A DNA stretch of 33,570 nt. Source: Microcaldota archaeon (GTDB taxonomy: Archaea > Micrarchaeota > Micrarchaeia > Anstonellales > Bilamarchaeaceae). Shown here in pieces: positions 6,526-27,926 of this stretch (position 1 is its first letter; each line of letters opens with the position of its first letter). Position numbers and translations under genes: made by a program. Location: the NCBI GenBank assembly GCA_030648615.1, contig JAUSHJ010000039.1, positions 1-33,570 of the forward strand, given 5' to 3'. The notes below the pieces were generated by a model that did no database searches, was not told the origin of the DNA, and saw only the letters and a program-made list of their open reading frames with translations.

Positions 6526-7833
6526 TTGAATAGAAAAGGTGACTATTTGAAAATTCTTGAGGAAAAACTTGCAAAATTCGGAATGAAACTTGGCTTAGAG
6601 AGGATTCGGACATTTTGCAGTTATCTTGGAAATCCCCAAAACAAAATGAAAGTAATTTTAGTTACTGGTACTAATGGAAAGGGAAGTGTCACCAGCTACT
6701 TATCAAGCATTCTCAAGGAAGAAGGTTACAAAACTGGTGCTTACTACTCTCCGCATATAAAAAAATATAATGAACGATTTCAAATAGATGGAAAACTTAT
6801 TTCTGATGTAAAATTTAAAAAATATGAGAAGATTACACTAGATTATTTGAAGAATAAGAAGGATAAAATTGAAAAGAAATTTTATCCGCATTGTAAATTA
6901 TCGAATTTACAATACAATAATAAAAAAGAAAACGAACTAACTTTATTCGAAGCACTTACAGGCATTGCATACAAATACTTTGCAGATGAAAACTGTGATT
7001 TCGCAGTAATGGAAATTGGTTTAGGAGGGAGATATGATGCGACAAACATTGCTGATGAGTGCATTTCCATAATAACAAATATTGCTCTGGAACACACAGA
7101 GTATCTTGGAGACCATGTGGAAAAAATAGCATGGGAAAAAGCAGGAATAATAAAAAAAGGTATCTCCATAACTGGTGCGGAAAAAGAAGCTTTGGAAATT
7201 ATAAAAATAGAAGCAAAAGGGCGAAACGTTCAATTAAAAATAATTAACGAGGATTTTTTTGCAACTTTGGTTGAAGCAACCGATAAACATACAGTGTTTG
7301 ATTACATTGGAGAGACATTTTACACGAAACTCGAAACTAATTTACTTGGCAGATATCAGGCAATTAATGCTGCATTAGCTGTTGCTGCTGCTGAAGAATT
7401 AGGAGTGGAACAAAATGCAATAAGAAAAGGTTTGAAAAATGCAAAGAATCCTGGAAGACTGGAGATAATTAGTACCAAATCATTGGTAGTTATTGACGCA
7501 GCACACAATATACACGGAATAAAGGAACTTGTAAAAAATCTGGATTTATTCAAATATGATAAATTAATTTGTGTTTTCGGAGTGATGAAAGACAAGGACT
7601 GGAAAGGAATGGTAACTTTACTTGCTCCTCACTGTGATAAAATGATAATAAATCAAATAAAAGATGAACGGGCAGCAGATGCAGATGAAGTTGCACGTTT
7701 CATACAACAATTCACGAGTGCCACCGCAATAAAAGACCCAAAGAAAAGCCTAGTTTTAGCTAAGAAAATAGCAAAAAAAGATGATTTAATCCTTATTTGT
7801 GGAAGCATTTACATGCTTGGCAAAATACTTTAA
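6526..7833 (+). CDS. folC: Folylpolyglutamate/dihydrofolate synthase FolC (Mur ligase family)
   Basis: VILVTGTNGKGSVTSYLSSIL, YYSPHIKKYNERFQIDG, MEIGLGGRYDATN, ITNIALEHTEYLG, VVIDAAHNIHGI. Start TTG 6526 or TTG 6547. Confidence 0.93.
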   Translation: MNRKGDYLKILEEKLAKFGMKLGLERIRTFCSYLGNPQNKMKVILVTGTNGKGSVTSYLSSILKEEGYKTGAYYSPHIKKYNERFQIDGKLISDVKFKKYEKITLDYLKNKKDKIEKKFYPHCKLSNLQYNNKKENELTLFEALTGIAYKYFADENCDFAVMEIGLGGRYDATNIADECISIITNIALEHTEYLGDHVEKIAWEKAGIIKKGISITGAEKEALEIIKIEAKGRNVQLKIINEDFFATLVEATDKHTVFDYIGETFYTKLETNLLGRYQAINAALAVAAAEELGVEQNAIRKGLKNAKNPGRLEIISTKSLVVIDAAHNIHGIKELVKNLDLFKYDKLICVFGVMKDKDWKGMVTLLAPHCDKMIINQIKDERAADADEVARFIQQFTSATAIKDPKKSLVLAKKIAKKDDLILICGSIYMLGKIL

Positions 7834-15651: not shown

Positions 15652-16535
15652 AGATATACATAACCGGAGCATCCGGAAGACTCGGTCACGCAGTAATGAA
15701 GCTTTTGCCTAGTGCAATCTCAGTTAACCTTAGAGATGAGTCTCTAAACTTAAAAAAAACATTTTCTAATGCTACTCACGTAATTCATTTAGCCGCATCT
15801 TTAAATTTCGAAGACGCAAGAGAACTATGGAAATCTAATTATGAATTAACGAAACGAGTAGTTAACTCACTACCGAAGAATTGCAAAATAGTATATGCGA
15901 GTTCAATCAGTGTTTACGGAAAGAGACTTGTAGAAATACCAGCAACAGAGAAAACTCCCTGCCACCCTGACAGTGCATACGCAAAAAGCAAATATGCTGC
16001 TGAACAAGAAGTAATTAAGCATGGAAATTACGTTGCTCTGCGAATTGCTGCAATCTATGGCCCTGGATTCACTGATTATTTCAAGATGATTGATGTTCTT
16101 AGAAAAGGACATATGAGAATTATTGGAGATGGCAGCAACAGAGTGCCGTTTGTTCATGTAGAAGATGTTGCAAAGGCGATTAAGAACTCTCTTAATGCGA
16201 AGAGCGGAATTTATCTTTTGTCTGCTGACTCGATAACACAAAGAAAAACGTTCGAAATAGTTTCCAAAGAATTGGGAATTACAACTCCTATGAAAACTAT
16301 TAGTCCAGACATAGTTCATGCATTGTTAAAGATTACAAAAATAATTAGAAAACTAACTCATAAGGGTGAATTCCTTACTCCTGAGCATTTGAACATTTTG
16401 TCTAAAGATAGAGTATTTGATTGTTCTAAAGCAAAGAAGGAATTGAAATTTAAACCGAGAAAGACTGAGCGGGGAATTGGAGAAATGGTGAAGGAGTATT
16501 TGAGGGTGAAAAAGAGTATGTCTGTTGTGAAGTGA
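15648..16535 (+). CDS. NAD-dependent epimerase/dehydratase (extended SDR)
   Basis: MKIYITGASGRLGHAV; HVIHLAA; YASSISVYG; YAKSKYAAEQ; RIAAIYGPG; VPFVHVEDVAKAI. Confidence 0.9.
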   Translation: MKIYITGASGRLGHAVMKLLPSAISVNLRDESLNLKKTFSNATHVIHLAASLNFEDARELWKSNYELTKRVVNSLPKNCKIVYASSISVYGKRLVEIPATEKTPCHPDSAYAKSKYAAEQEVIKHGNYVALRIAAIYGPGFTDYFKMIDVLRKGHMRIIGDGSNRVPFVHVEDVAKAIKNSLNAKSGIYLLSADSITQRKTFEIVSKELGITTPMKTISPDIVHALLKITKIIRKLTHKGEFLTPEHLNILSKDRVFDCSKAKKELKFKPRKTERGIGEMVKEYLRVKKSMSVVK

Positions 16536-16580
16536 CATGTTTTCAAAAGTATGTCTGTTCTGAAACGACATGTTGTAAAT
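16515..16580. repeat. Two tandem 33-bp units (AGTATGTCTGTTSTGAARYGACATGTT...)
   Basis: 16515-16547 and 16548-16580 match at 27/33 positions. The first copy spans the end of the epimerase CDS. Confidence 0.75.
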
Positions 16581-16616: not shown

Positions 16617-16712
16617 ATCATTCTAGCTAATGATTTGCTAAAATGATATGCATTCTAGTAAATGACTTTCTAAAATGATAGTCATTTCGTTCAATGAGTT
16701 TGACGAAATGAT
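16617..16712. repeat. Three tandem hairpin-forming units of 31, 32 and 33 nt between convergent genes
   Basis: ATCATTCTAGCTAATGATTTGCTAAAATGAT / ATGCATTCTAGTAAATGACTTTCTAAAATGAT / AGTCATTTCGTTCAATGAGTTTGACGAAATGAT. Confidence 0.75.
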
Positions 16713-17921: not shown

Positions 17922-18863
17922 ATGCAAATTTACGAAATGGAAAAACAAAAGGACAGAGAAAGTGCTGCGAAAGAACTACTGAGATTTGAAAAGCTAATGA
18001 AGAAGACTGAGCAAGAATTCCAAAAATTACTTTCGTGGCAGATAAAATATTGTAAAGAAATTGTAGCCAACAAAAACGGTTATGAAGACAGGGTAATAAC
18101 TTATGGAACTACAGTTAAGTTCATTGAAAGAATTGATAACCCGTCGCCGGTGATGCTAAACGAAGTATACGATATAGAAAATGATGTAAAGAAAATCAAG
18201 CAGGAAGGATATGAAATAATAGGCGGGTTAGGAGGATTCTCTTTTAACAATGGAAGAGATGCTGGTGAATTAGTTTTTCTACCAGGTGGAACTGCAATAA
18301 GAACACAACTAGAAAACGGTTCGCACTACTCGATGATGGTAGCTCCTATGAATATTTATCCTCAGTGCATACTTACCGCAAGAAAAACTATAGATGAAAA
18401 ATTTGATAATAAAATTTTTCAGAATTGTAAATTATCAAATTTACAATATGAGAATGACAAAACTAATAAAAAAAGTAATCAAATGATCATAATTGTTTTT
18501 GAAAAAGGAGATGACGTCAAGCAAGGAATACAAAAAATTTCTGAATTAGTTGGAGATAGTAAAAAAACAATAACTGGAGTTATTAGCGGAAGTTTCACTG
18601 ATTTAAAAGGTTATATTTTTAGTGGAGCATCGCCAAAAACAGTTCTGACTAATTTTCAAATAAAAGAAAACAAAAATATGTTTTTCTATCAGACATTATT
18701 AGGAAAAGATGTAAAAGGTTTCAAAAGAGTTGTGCATACGCACGGTTATGAAGCTGCTAAATTTGGTGAACCGCATTCCTTTGGAGCGCATGTTGATGAT
18801 GCGATTATTAATATTTTTGCAATTGGTGTTTTTTCAATTATAGATAAAGTTGAGCAAAAGTAA
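17922..18863 (+). CDS. Uncharacterised protein; C-terminal half resembles a PPC/DUF296-type domain
   Basis: MIIIVFEKGDDVKQGIQKISELVGDSKKTITGVISGSFTDLKGYIFSG...RVVHTHGYEAAKFGEPHSFGAHVDDAIINIFAIGVFSI follows PPC/DUF296 order with His-rich motifs. CKLSNLQY insert precedes it. Confidence 0.55.
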   Translation: MQIYEMEKQKDRESAAKELLRFEKLMKKTEQEFQKLLSWQIKYCKEIVANKNGYEDRVITYGTTVKFIERIDNPSPVMLNEVYDIENDVKKIKQEGYEIIGGLGGFSFNNGRDAGELVFLPGGTAIRTQLENGSHYSMMVAPMNIYPQCILTARKTIDEKFDNKIFQNCKLSNLQYENDKTNKKSNQMIIIVFEKGDDVKQGIQKISELVGDSKKTITGVISGSFTDLKGYIFSGASPKTVLTNFQIKENKNMFFYQTLLGKDVKGFKRVVHTHGYEAAKFGEPHSFGAHVDDAIINIFAIGVFSIIDKVEQK

Positions 18864-24076: not shown

Positions 24077-24562
24077 TCATACTGTTGAAAGTAATGTTCC
24101 TAATCCCATTTCAGTTGCATGTTCTCTGATGAACTTAGAAGCATCGGAATCCGGATTTGTTTTAACTTCCTCAATTAATTGTGCTTTGAAAGCATCTATT
24201 CGTTCTTGTCTTACACGAACTTCTTCCCCGACTCTTGTAAAAGCATCTGTTTCCAATGTAATAGCATTAGGACCATATGGTTTTTTGGAAAGGAATTTTC
24301 TTCTAGTCAATTCATCTGGAGAGCCAACATAAGAATTTTCAACTACAGTAAACCCAGTTTCTTTTGTCCAATAGCATCGATGCTCGTCCCCATTCTTTCC
24401 GATTCCCCTCTGAAAGAAATCTATTGGAGCTTCGGTGTAAGCAATTCTTGGTGGATGAAGATTGCGAATAGAATCTCTTAAAGACTCTCTTGAAGAACGT
24501 ACATCCGATCCATCTATTTTTACTCTACTTAGTGTTGTTTTACCTACTAGTTTAAGTGTCAT
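24077..24562 (-). CDS. Uncharacterised protein, tandem paralog of 24576-25256
   Basis: ATG 24562 (MTLKLVGKTTLS) with GGTGAT upstream preferred over the track start 24664. C-terminal FKAQLIEEVKTNPDSDASKFIREHATEMGL is shared with its neighbour. Confidence 0.7.
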   Translation of the reverse strand: MTLKLVGKTTLSRVKIDGSDVRSSRESLRDSIRNLHPPRIAYTEAPIDFFQRGIGKNGDEHRCYWTKETGFTVVENSYVGSPDELTRRKFLSKKPYGPNAITLETDAFTRVGEEVRVRQERIDAFKAQLIEEVKTNPDSDASKFIREHATEMGLGTLLSTV

Positions 24563-24575
24563 ATTATCACCATTT

Positions 24576-25256
24576 TTATTTCGAAAATTCCAATCCCATT
24601 TCAACTGCATGTGCTCTGATGAATACTGATTTTTCTGATAATGGATTTGTTTTAACTTCCTCAATTAATCTTATTTTGAAAAGAGTAATCTTACATTTTG
24701 AATCGAAATCACTAAGATCGCCAGCAGAATGACCAGAATTATCATAGATTTCAAGTCCTTTACCCGTATCCCATACAACTCTATATCCATCTTCGTTTTT
24801 ACCAATGCCTACTGTTGTTTTTTCCCCTCCATATAAATCGAGTGGTTGACTTGTGTATTTAAACGAAGGACTACCAGTTTGACTAAGTTTCATTTCTGCA
24901 AAAGATTCGACAGATCCGCCTTCACCAGTTGGAATCCAAGGTTTAGAATCTAAGTACCAGCCATCTCTTGTTGGGAACGCTGGAACTAAATCAACTCCTC
25001 GATCATCACGTCCATCAATACATGTAATATCAGAAGTACCAAACTGAGGCTCTGCTTCTTTTACGAATGGATTTGGAGTATCTGGTTTATCCCTAGCAGA
25101 AATTCTAGCAAATCCAGTTTCTAACAATAATCTTGCACCTACCAAATTTAATTTAATCCCGTGAACAGCATCTTTGAAAGGACTAGCAATATCTTTTGGC
25201 TTATCTCCTGGTTTTCCTGGCTTGAATATCAAATTATCACCTAAACTATTACTCAA
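24576..25256 (-). CDS. Uncharacterised protein, tandem paralog of 24077-24562
   Basis: Shares IKLNLVGA, GIGKNEDGYRVVW and FKIRLIEEVKTNPLSEKSVFIRAHAVEMGL. TTG start at 25256 is uncertain; TATA at 25263-25270 suggests a more internal start. Confidence 0.65.
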   Translation of the reverse strand: MSNSLGDNLIFKPGKPGDKPKDIASPFKDAVHGIKLNLVGARLLLETGFARISARDKPDTPNPFVKEAEPQFGTSDITCIDGRDDRGVDLVPAFPTRDGWYLDSKPWIPTGEGGSVESFAEMKLSQTGSPSFKYTSQPLDLYGGEKTTVGIGKNEDGYRVVWDTGKGLEIYDNSGHSAGDLSDFDSKCKITLFKIRLIEEVKTNPLSEKSVFIRAHAVEMGLEFSK

Positions 25257-25799: not shown

Positions 25800-26816
25800 A
25801 TGCGAAATAGCCACAGAGAAAAATTCGCCAAAAAACGATGGGACGAAACAGTACTACTACCGAAACGAAGAATGACTGAAACTGAAGAATTAATAAGAAA
25901 ACTTGGCTCACCCATGGAAGAGGGAGTTTACTCCGATTCAAAAGCAAAACACATGTGGAAAATTGCCGATTGGGTAGAAGATATACGCGGCAAACGATGG
26001 GGAGAACGAAGTAAAGAAGGAGAATTGAGCGACGATATAGAAGCAATTTATTCGTTACTATTGCCACGAGAGCTACAAGCAAACATTTGCATCCCAGTTG
26101 ACCTTAACCGGATTTTAAAAATACTCGTTTCAGAAAGGAACTTTTTCACTAATCGTGGAATGCTTACTCCTGCACATATAATGGAATTGTCACTCCAAAA
26201 AAGGCAGAAAATCCTTACCTACCCTCACAATTATCTGAACTATGCGATGTTCGCCATGGTGGGTGTATTAAGAGAATTGAATTACGATGCAAAAGTAGCA
26301 TTTAAGCAAATGGAAATAGAAATGGGAACTTCTGATGGCGCTGTAATACTAAATAGTGGGATAGTAGTATGCACAGCTTTGATAACCCCGGATAACACCA
26401 ATAAACTCGTGATAGCTGGAATAGGTAGAAATGATTGTGAATATGACTCTGTTTTCATACCTGATGAAGAAAGTGCCATGGGAGTAGCAGCACTATTAAC
26501 TGCAGCAAATGCAGTTATGAAATATCTAACACTGGAAAAAGATATTGGTAGAATAAAACTTGATATCATGAGAGAGATTATAAGAAATCTAGAATGTGCT
26601 CAAAATGAAATAGCAGATGGAACCGACATCATAGTGGATTTTATGGCACCGCTTTTCGACATACTAGAAAGGACTTTCGATAGAAGCGTTATCGATGCGC
26701 TCTCAAGATCAAGAGTAGTATATGAGATTATAGAATCCGGAAAAGAAAGATTGGAACATATTAATGATTTTAAAACAGCAAGTGAAATAGCAGAACGTGC
26801 AGAAGGAACTAATTAG
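25800..26816 (+). CDS. Uncharacterised protein, tandem paralog A
   Basis: RGMLTPAHIMEL...TYPHNYLNYAMFAMVGVLRELNYDAKVAFKQMEIE... parallels 26901-27926 over most of its length. Confidence 0.75.
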   Translation: MRNSHREKFAKKRWDETVLLPKRRMTETEELIRKLGSPMEEGVYSDSKAKHMWKIADWVEDIRGKRWGERSKEGELSDDIEAIYSLLLPRELQANICIPVDLNRILKILVSERNFFTNRGMLTPAHIMELSLQKRQKILTYPHNYLNYAMFAMVGVLRELNYDAKVAFKQMEIEMGTSDGAVILNSGIVVCTALITPDNTNKLVIAGIGRNDCEYDSVFIPDEESAMGVAALLTAANAVMKYLTLEKDIGRIKLDIMREIIRNLECAQNEIADGTDIIVDFMAPLFDILERTFDRSVIDALSRSRVVYEIIESGKERLEHINDFKTASEIAERAEGTN

Positions 26817-26900
26817 AGATCAGTAACCAATAGATTTTGATTGTATAAAACATATGTACAATAGATAGATTTAAATTCTCATTTTATCAGCTAATATAAC

Positions 26901-27926
26901 ATGAAGCATTATGATCTAAAATTTAACATCCCAATTCCAGGCAACAAATTAATAATAAGCCCAAGAACAAATGAGGCGGATATAAGAAAAATAAGAAATG
27001 TTTTAGGGGCACCTTTAATGGAGGGTGTATTTTCTGATTCTACAAGTGGGAACGTAAAAAGACTAGCTGAATTAGTAAGGCTATCCAGAGGCCAAAGATG
27101 GGAAATGTTACGGCAAGATGTAAAAGTCCAACATGATATAAATGCAGTATTTTCTATTTTGCTACCGGATAGTGAGAAGGCAATTCTTCAGCCTCTGGTA
27201 GATGTAAATGCAGATAGAAAAAGAGTTGAAATCGTAGTTACTCCAGTAGAAGAACTCCATAACGCCGGAATGCTTACTCCTGCACATATTTTAGATAATA
27301 TAATGCAGTTCGATAAGAGTGATGTGTTTATCGCTTATCCCTTGGATTACCATCACTATGTTGGAATAGTAATGGTTGCAGTATTAAGAGAACTAGGATA
27401 TGAAGTACGGGTGGCTATGAAGTATAAATTGATGGAGATAGAAACCGCTGATGGAGATAAACAATTTCATATTAATCCACTTATATCTGCTGCACTAATT
27501 GAACCGTCTAATGAGAATGAGCTAATAGTCATGGGATTTGGATCCTGGAATGTCGGATATAATTATGTCAGGATTTTTGATGACCAATCTGCAGTAGGTG
27601 TAGTAGGTCTGCTTACTGCATATAATGCAATTATAAAAATATCAAAAGGAGTAGAATTAACCGGCAAAGTTAAAGTAAAACATATTTATGAATTCCTCCA
27701 AGCACTCAGTTTGGGCTTGAACATGCTACCGGGAAATGGAGAAATGGAAAAGGATTTTTTAGCTCCAGTACTATCACGTATTGCTAAAAATGAACCTCTT
27801 ATGAAAGTTCTTGAAAAGACTACTAATCTGGGGCAGTTCATAGAAGAAACAGTCGATAGATTGGAAGAAATGAAAATGGTTGAAAGAGAAACACCTAAAG
27901 ACAGTGATCCGAATATGTTTAGCTAA
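26901..27926 (+). CDS. Uncharacterised protein, tandem paralog B
   Basis: AGMLTPAHILDN...AYPLDYHHYVGIVMVAVLRELGYEVRVAMKYKLMEIE...; shared promoter block with paralog A. Confidence 0.75.
   Translation: MKHYDLKFNIPIPGNKLIISPRTNEADIRKIRNVLGAPLMEGVFSDSTSGNVKRLAELVRLSRGQRWEMLRQDVKVQHDINAVFSILLPDSEKAILQPLVDVNADRKRVEIVVTPVEELHNAGMLTPAHILDNIMQFDKSDVFIAYPLDYHHYVGIVMVAVLRELGYEVRVAMKYKLMEIETADGDKQFHINPLISAALIEPSNENELIVMGFGSWNVGYNYVRIFDDQSAVGVVGLLTAYNAIIKISKGVELTGKVKVKHIYEFLQALSLGLNMLPGNGEMEKDFLAPVLSRIAKNEPLMKVLEKTTNLGQFIEETVDRLEEMKMVERETPKDSDPNMFS

Follow-up and report, generated by a model that had tools for sequence, protein, structure and literature searches.

A short double-hairpin DNA element dispersed in the genomes of Micrarchaeota and carried in frame by folC

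Most known cases of palindromic DNA elements that lie within protein-coding genes come from Rickettsia and Wolbachia; there is one archaeal report, and we found no mechanism for their movement in the literature. The Rickettsia palindromic elements (RPEs) and the Wolbachia palindromic repeats are dispersed, occur in frame in unrelated conserved proteins as well as between genes, and are tolerated (PMC2229807, PMC10969869, PMC6649704). The RPEs are long stem-loops of 105–150 bp in alphaproteobacteria, given as 105–146 bp with terminal inverted repeats in PMC2229807. The archaeal case is a coding palindromic repeat reported in 2005 from one hyperthermophilic methanogen, Methanocaldococcus jannaschii (cited as reference 49 in PMC2996958). 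Also comparable are the double-hairpin elements of Allomyces mitochondrial DNA and the GC clusters of yeast mitochondrial DNA, which are very short and mobile, merge and shuffle, and have no known autonomous partner (PMC4478555; PMC2800124). Both kinds are organellar and G+C-rich, and the yeast GC clusters have putative target duplications of 2–3 bp (AG/ACT) (PMC4478555; PMC2800124).

The DNA studied here, the whole of which is referred to as the window, is a stretch of 33,570 nucleotides from a Micrarchaeota genome. An earlier note on it had reported near-identical palindromes with perfect 10-bp stems in folC and in a second gene, both encoding CKLSNLQY with one shared reading phase, and had interpreted them as a mobile palindromic element like the RPEs. 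The palindrome, ATTGTAAATTATC[G/A]AATTTACAAT, is present at both loci (6890–6913 and 18424–18447, both on the forward strand) in a common phase and with that reading, whereas in 100 dinucleotide shuffles of the window none is expected by chance, even with three mismatches allowed. Mobility is borne out by further copies in this genome and its relatives, but the palindrome proves to be only part of the element and most copies are intergenic. The complete mobile DNA element has two hairpins in roughly 57 bases, and the repeated palindrome (hairpin 2) forms its 3' half. In our view, it is very probably best explained as a non-autonomous, selfish double-hairpin element of Micrarchaeota; the evidence is drawn from MAGs throughout.

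Like the RPEs, the element has multiple dispersed palindromic copies and occurs in frame in unrelated conserved proteins. It differs from them in its length of 54–57 nt, its two tandem hairpins, its unpaired TACAA end, its lack of terminal inverted repeats, its DPANN archaeal hosts and its defined A-rich target, a separation made on descriptive features. The M. jannaschii repeats, compared here by citation only, are likewise archaeal palindromic coding insertions, and because that report exists, as far as the citing paper conveys it, the Micrarchaeota element is not the first archaeal coding palindrome. In consisting of two adjacent hairpins in very short mobile DNA the unit resembles the mitochondrial elements, but unlike the yeast GC clusters it shows no visible short target duplication, and its sequence is different. 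A literature search of incomplete coverage found no description of such an element in Micrarchaeota. It appears to be a distinct family, apparently undescribed, that works like the RPEs, the M. jannaschii repeats and the mitochondrial double-hairpin and GC-cluster elements.

Anatomy, structure and distribution

The features of the two loci in the window are as follows.

6526–7833, forward strand: host gene folC (folylpolyglutamate/dihydrofolate synthase, Mur ligase family), with a 24-amino-acid insertion relative to Micrarchaeota orthologs
6861–6917, forward strand: element copy 1 (57 nt), in frame in folC; covariance-model match 6855–6926, E = 1.5e-9
6861–6887, forward strand: hairpin 1 of copy 1 (10-bp stem, 7-nt loop); fold z of -7.3 (DNA) and -6.8 (RNA)
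6890–6913, forward strand: hairpin 2 of copy 1, the palindrome of the earlier note; pattern search, stem check and fold
6918–6924, forward strand: 3' flank TAATAAA, which fits the target motif NNANAAA; flank logos and the empty site of a relative
17922–18863, forward strand: host ORF of 313 amino acids with no Pfam match (ORF17922); orthologs match residues 1–157 and 183–313 only
18395–18451, forward strand: element copy 2 (57 nt), in frame in ORF17922; covariance-model match 18389–18460, E = 9.2e-8
18395–18421, forward strand: hairpin 1 of copy 2, TGAAAAATTT-gataata-AAATTTTTCA; sequence and alignments
18424–18447, forward strand: hairpin 2 of copy 2; pattern search and stem check

The element follows the plan 5'-GGACAAA…HP1…HP2…TACAA-3', with a usual length of 54–57 bp: a hairpin 1 of the GGACAAA type, a spacer of 2–3 nt (GC or GCA), a hairpin 2 of the TTGTAAATT/TTGGAATTT type and a terminal TACAA-3'. 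The folC unit at 6861–6917 reads GGATAAAATT-gaaaaga-AATTTTATCC-GC-ATTGTAAATT-atcg-AATTTACAAT-ACAA, and its ends were set from near-identical copies and from empty sites in relatives. Hairpin 2 of the window copies, written ATTGTAAATT-ATCR-AATTTACAAT, has in each case a perfect 10-bp stem and a 4-nt loop. The direct repeat between the two loci is wider than the palindrome, extending over 66 nt with 79% identity (6862–6927 versus 18396–18461). Over its full 57 nt, copy 1 folds into two adjacent hairpins (z = -7.3 as DNA and -6.8 as RNA), and none of its shuffles matches the native fold quality by DNA or RNA folding.

The upstream second hairpin is present in nearly all of the aligned copies from relatives. 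Stem sequences vary among copies and genera, but pairing is retained, and the structure of the element is conserved through compensatory changes. Both-sided changes were seen in 8 of 20 pairs in a first MAFFT alignment. In an alignment of 65 copies from many genera (A7), 97.4% of the cells are paired and 17 of the 20 pairs show both-sided changes, counts that lean toward structure because this alignment was fitted to the covariance model. The covariation score of the 65 copies is 0.413, compared with 0.124 for shuffled alignments and at most 0.051 for slid pairings. A covariance-model search of Rfam 15 gave no family that matches the element, the sole sub-threshold match lying elsewhere and being attributable to chance.

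A search of the genome and its relatives, as the earlier note had proposed, returned many further copies. In the window's genome the covariance model finds 25–27 copies at E ≤ 1 and 25 at E ≤ 0.1; the counts for relatives include 48 in G026, 17 in G053, 16 in G056 and 13 in G005. At E ≤ 0.1 the element is carried by 26 of 59 relatives, and at the stricter E ≤ 0.001 a sample of 295 genomes from the phylum contains 35 carriers. A third exact palindrome, EKFDKKIFQNCKLSNLQYDKK, lies on another contig of the window's genome, in frame in a PMT_2-family glycosyltransferase, and every named record with the exact hairpin 2 sequence belongs to Candidatus Micrarchaeota. The distribution is patchy, as related genomes within one genus are often without any copy. 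A search of the IMG/VR viral sequences with three patterns gave no copies of the element; eight 17-mer matches were not elements.

Ends, target site and modular exchange

In flank logos built from 126 copies in three sets, information is at background level outside GGACAAA on the left and an NNANAAA flank on the right. Adenine occupies position +3 in 123 of the 126 copies, +5 in 116, +6 in 110 and -1 in 107, while the +1 position after the element has no comparable preference. The target consensus is A^NNANAAA or, on the opposite strand, TTTNTNN^T. In the window's genome and G026 there is also a weak bias toward A/T 11 nt upstream, which was discarded as a feature of the element since it does not hold in other genera.

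Comparison of genomes indicates recent movement. A genome from Lac Pavin (G156) contains 6–7 near-identical 70-bp copies at unrelated sites that diverge exactly at the ends of the element. Its sister species (G266), with a DNA identity of 75–86% over most of the compared region, has an empty site (...CTGC|GAACAAAAgCGAATTG) where G156 is filled (...TACAA|GAACAAAAcCGAATTG), from which it follows that the A-rich motif pre-exists as the target and that the element inserts immediately 5' of it. No target-site duplication is visible at the G156 copies, either among the near-identical copies or against the G266 empty site; the left flank of the latter has diverged, leaving one clean junction, so that the absence of a duplication at this site rests on the right junction. 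A second pair of sites (TGAGAAA in G266 and TAAAAAA in G156, element strand) also fits, but is less clean because its flanks are of low complexity. The element is therefore multi-copy, dispersed and precisely bounded, has recently been duplicated and mobile, and inserts without visible duplication directly before a pre-existing A-rich site.

We note that the excess over orthologs at folC (6861–6935) and ORF17922 (18395–18466) is about 72 nt compared with the 57 nt of the element, and that the extra 15 nt are A-rich. A target-site duplication suspected from this difference was rejected, as the G156 copies show none.

Copies nest, form tandems and exchange hairpins. The first bases of the element, GGACAAA, themselves satisfy the target consensus, which would explain the head-to-tail tandems that occur beside existing copies (...TACAA|GGACAAATT and ATATAA|GGACAAAG). 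At L147, L167, L184, L182, L188 and L232, further double hairpins lie inside the element, either within the hairpin 2 loop or between its two hairpins. An internal 48-bp pair is found in both orientations (L162/L165 versus L199), and L232 and L233 have nearly the same nested hairpin 2 with a different hairpin 1; such merger and shuffling of hairpins resembles that of the GC clusters.

The 48-bp pair represents a second double-hairpin family, GTGGAGAAATTC..GAATTTCTCC TGTAGCGAAC..GTTCGCTAC, found in either orientation between the two hairpins of the main element; its sites are L162 (832–1013), L165 (827–943), L199 and L186, in G026 and G004. A further nested pair, TGCGTTTTGC..GCAAAACGCA TCAGA CATCGCCC..GGGCGATG CTGA, occurs at L182, L188 and L198 in two genera (G053 and G056) and is G+C-richer than its host element. 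At two loci of the window's genome, L043 (G000:C63:20162) and L053 (C62:20105), unrelated hairpins, CTTGTCGCTctgAGCGACAAG and ATTGTCG..CGACAAT, break up hairpin 1.

Movement of the element

Elements of the IS200/IS605 type have hairpins at their ends, make no target duplication and insert in an oriented manner directed by a short motif, and REP/REPIN sequences and PATEs are tied to Y1/RAYT transposases. The Micrarchaeota element is, like REP/REPIN and the IS200/IS605-derived MITEs (PATEs), a small non-autonomous hairpin DNA, and it shares with the IS200/IS605 MITEs an oriented insertion at a short motif with no target duplication, as judged at one clean junction with the other flank diverged. 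It could accordingly be a miniature (MITE- or PATE-like) IS200/IS605 derivative, or belong to a REP/RAYT system; in either case a Y1 HUH transposase would act on the hairpin ends and mobilise it in trans. The two end-proximal hairpins, the absence of a visible target duplication and the orientation of insertion at the T-rich TTTNTNN^ are all consistent with this, as is the presence of Y1 genes in the window's genome (one) and in G156 (two). However, Y1 transposases do not track the element: copy number and Y1 matches show no correlation across the genomes searched (MAGs about 75–92% complete), there are no Y1 matches in G026 (48 copies), G053, G005, G256 or G266, and G045 has 14 Y1 matches but no element. 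The end hairpin of the Y1 element in the window's genome (AGCCCAGCACTTTAGTGCTGGGAGGG) is unrelated to the double-hairpin element. A covariance search around 15 Y1 loci revealed no flanking element ends, hence none shared with an autonomous Y1 element there; its single match was a copy recorded earlier, at about 1.1 kb distance from the Y1 gene of the window's genome. On the basis of copy number and end hairpin we rejected the Y1 transposase as the mobiliser and regard this origin as unlikely, although the incompleteness of the MAGs leaves some room for it.

The Y1 (IS200-like) transposase just mentioned is the only one in the window's genome; it lies at C47:14377–14727 (L127), and the element copy about 1.1 kb away (C47:13217) is degraded. 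An autonomous partner was also sought at hairpin 1 sites lacking hairpin 2, but all those inspected continue into other hairpins, as composites, and none into an ORF. The Y1 matches per genome, the 15 Y1 loci and the hairpin 1 sites thus identified no mobilising enzyme.

A different route would be through RNA: following the proposal for the yeast mitochondrial GC clusters, a transcribed hairpin RNA would be copied by reverse transcription and enter the genome at A/T-rich nicks. Insertion adjoins a TTTNTNN end, the hairpins are stable as RNA, and there is merger and shuffling as in the GC clusters, for which an RNA route has been argued (PMC4478555). The A-rich flank, however, belongs to the target and not to the element and is therefore not a copied tail; we consider this route improbable.

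For a non-autonomous, selfish double-hairpin element, which is the reading that we prefer, movement may take place as a folded single strand. The strand would be recognised by its hairpin shape and short end sequences by an enzyme supplied in trans, perhaps through an intermediate with the junction TACAA|GGACAAA. This junction resembles the target, which would explain the head-to-tail tandem insertions. It is possible, although we put it forward tentatively and with some doubt, that this represents a new mode of DNA movement, in which an enzyme or host process would read two tandem hairpins by their shape and insert them at A^NNANAAA without duplication, the modules nesting, inverting and swapping. 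The unit would then be defined by its structure and not by its sequence, and coding insertion would repeatedly supply DPANN archaea with new protein loops. The defined ends and target, recent copies, empty sites and covariation provide concrete sites at which to test what mobilises tiny hairpin elements, and these sites also bear on how such elements enter essential genes without killing the cell.

Intergenic and coding copies

Many of the copies lie between genes, some of them directly before start codons or after stops, as might be expected of cis elements useful to the host (RNA processing sites, terminators or 5' UTR regulators) that had been multiplied by recombination, with the coding copies accidental. 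Against this, the copies are patchy within genera, occur in unrelated proteins and nested in one another, have sharp transposon-like ends and a target motif, and match no Rfam family; we judge this explanation very unlikely.

The copy in folC is an insertion, as the earlier note had suspected. In an alignment of FolC orthologs, the 16 sequences from relatives are about 24 residues shorter exactly at the site of the element, so that the motif is not conserved there, and the solved FolC structure 1o5z also has a gap at this position. The AlphaFold2 model of FolC has a mean pLDDT of 88.7, with values below 50 for residues 118–130. This low-confidence insert lies in the loop between helices 89–114 and 135–149, with the fold kept around it. 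The insert is thus predicted to be a disordered, surface-type loop, in agreement with the surface placement suggested earlier.

Insertion could be established against orthologs or solved relatives in three further hosts. Orthologs of ORF17922 in G001 and G013 cover only residues 1–157 and 183–313. The insert in Kae1/TsaD of G156 is absent in G266, the Kae1 of which is 87% identical, and in other species, and coincides with a break in the alignment to solved Kae1. In Dus, the insert (residues 125–147) corresponds to a gap relative to solved Dus. Where they could be checked, the coding insertions sit in loops. The element is also in frame in LysE, HGSNAT_cat, PmbA/TldD, Pus10_C, RibD_C, the C-terminus of ribosomal L32e, an aminotransferase that is HisC-like by eye and, in the antisense orientation, a HepT-like ORF; for these hosts insertion is deduced from the presence of the element in the ORF. 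The RibD_C host (L015) was at first identified as DHFR, but Pfam assigns RibD_C. ORF17922 itself is about 61% conserved and was found in only G001 and G013 of 40 related genomes searched.

All six coding copies of the ATCR type, in FolC, ORF17922, PMT_2, RibD_C, Kae1 and an envelope-like protein (L122), share one common phase. Among 148 copies the unit is mostly 54–57 nt and its length is a multiple of 3 in 81, a count to which no probability is attached because the copies are related; in-frame statistics are in addition biased, the copies having been found through open frames. A joined-flank test also lists apparent disrupted cases among putative genes. An element landing in an open phase, with a length that is mostly 54 or 57 nt, extends the host ORF, which would lengthen the protein by about 19 residues, apparently without breaking it. 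The intact frames suggest that in-frame copies are translated and tolerated by the host protein. Splicing of the element from the mRNA as an archaeal BHB-type intron, such that the protein never contains it, would suit its presence in universal proteins such as Kae1, but is extremely improbable given that the coding copies confirmed through a protein family or an ortholog have lengths divisible by 3 and stay open in frame, which an intron does not need (although they were found via open frames), and that there are two separate hairpins with no helix pairing the two flanks. Where FolC, Kae1 and Dus of Micrarchaeota carry a lineage-specific insert of about 19 residues, selfish DNA should be the first reading, and adaptation not the default.

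The window has other repeated features. Two short tandem duplications with units of 33 and 32 bp are located at and just after the end of an epimerase-like ORF (16512–16577 and 16619–16682). Two tandemly duplicated gene pairs, comprising uncharacterised ORFs of about 200 and 340 amino acids, occupy 24077–25256 and 25800–27926, with repeated segments at the starts and ends of the genes.
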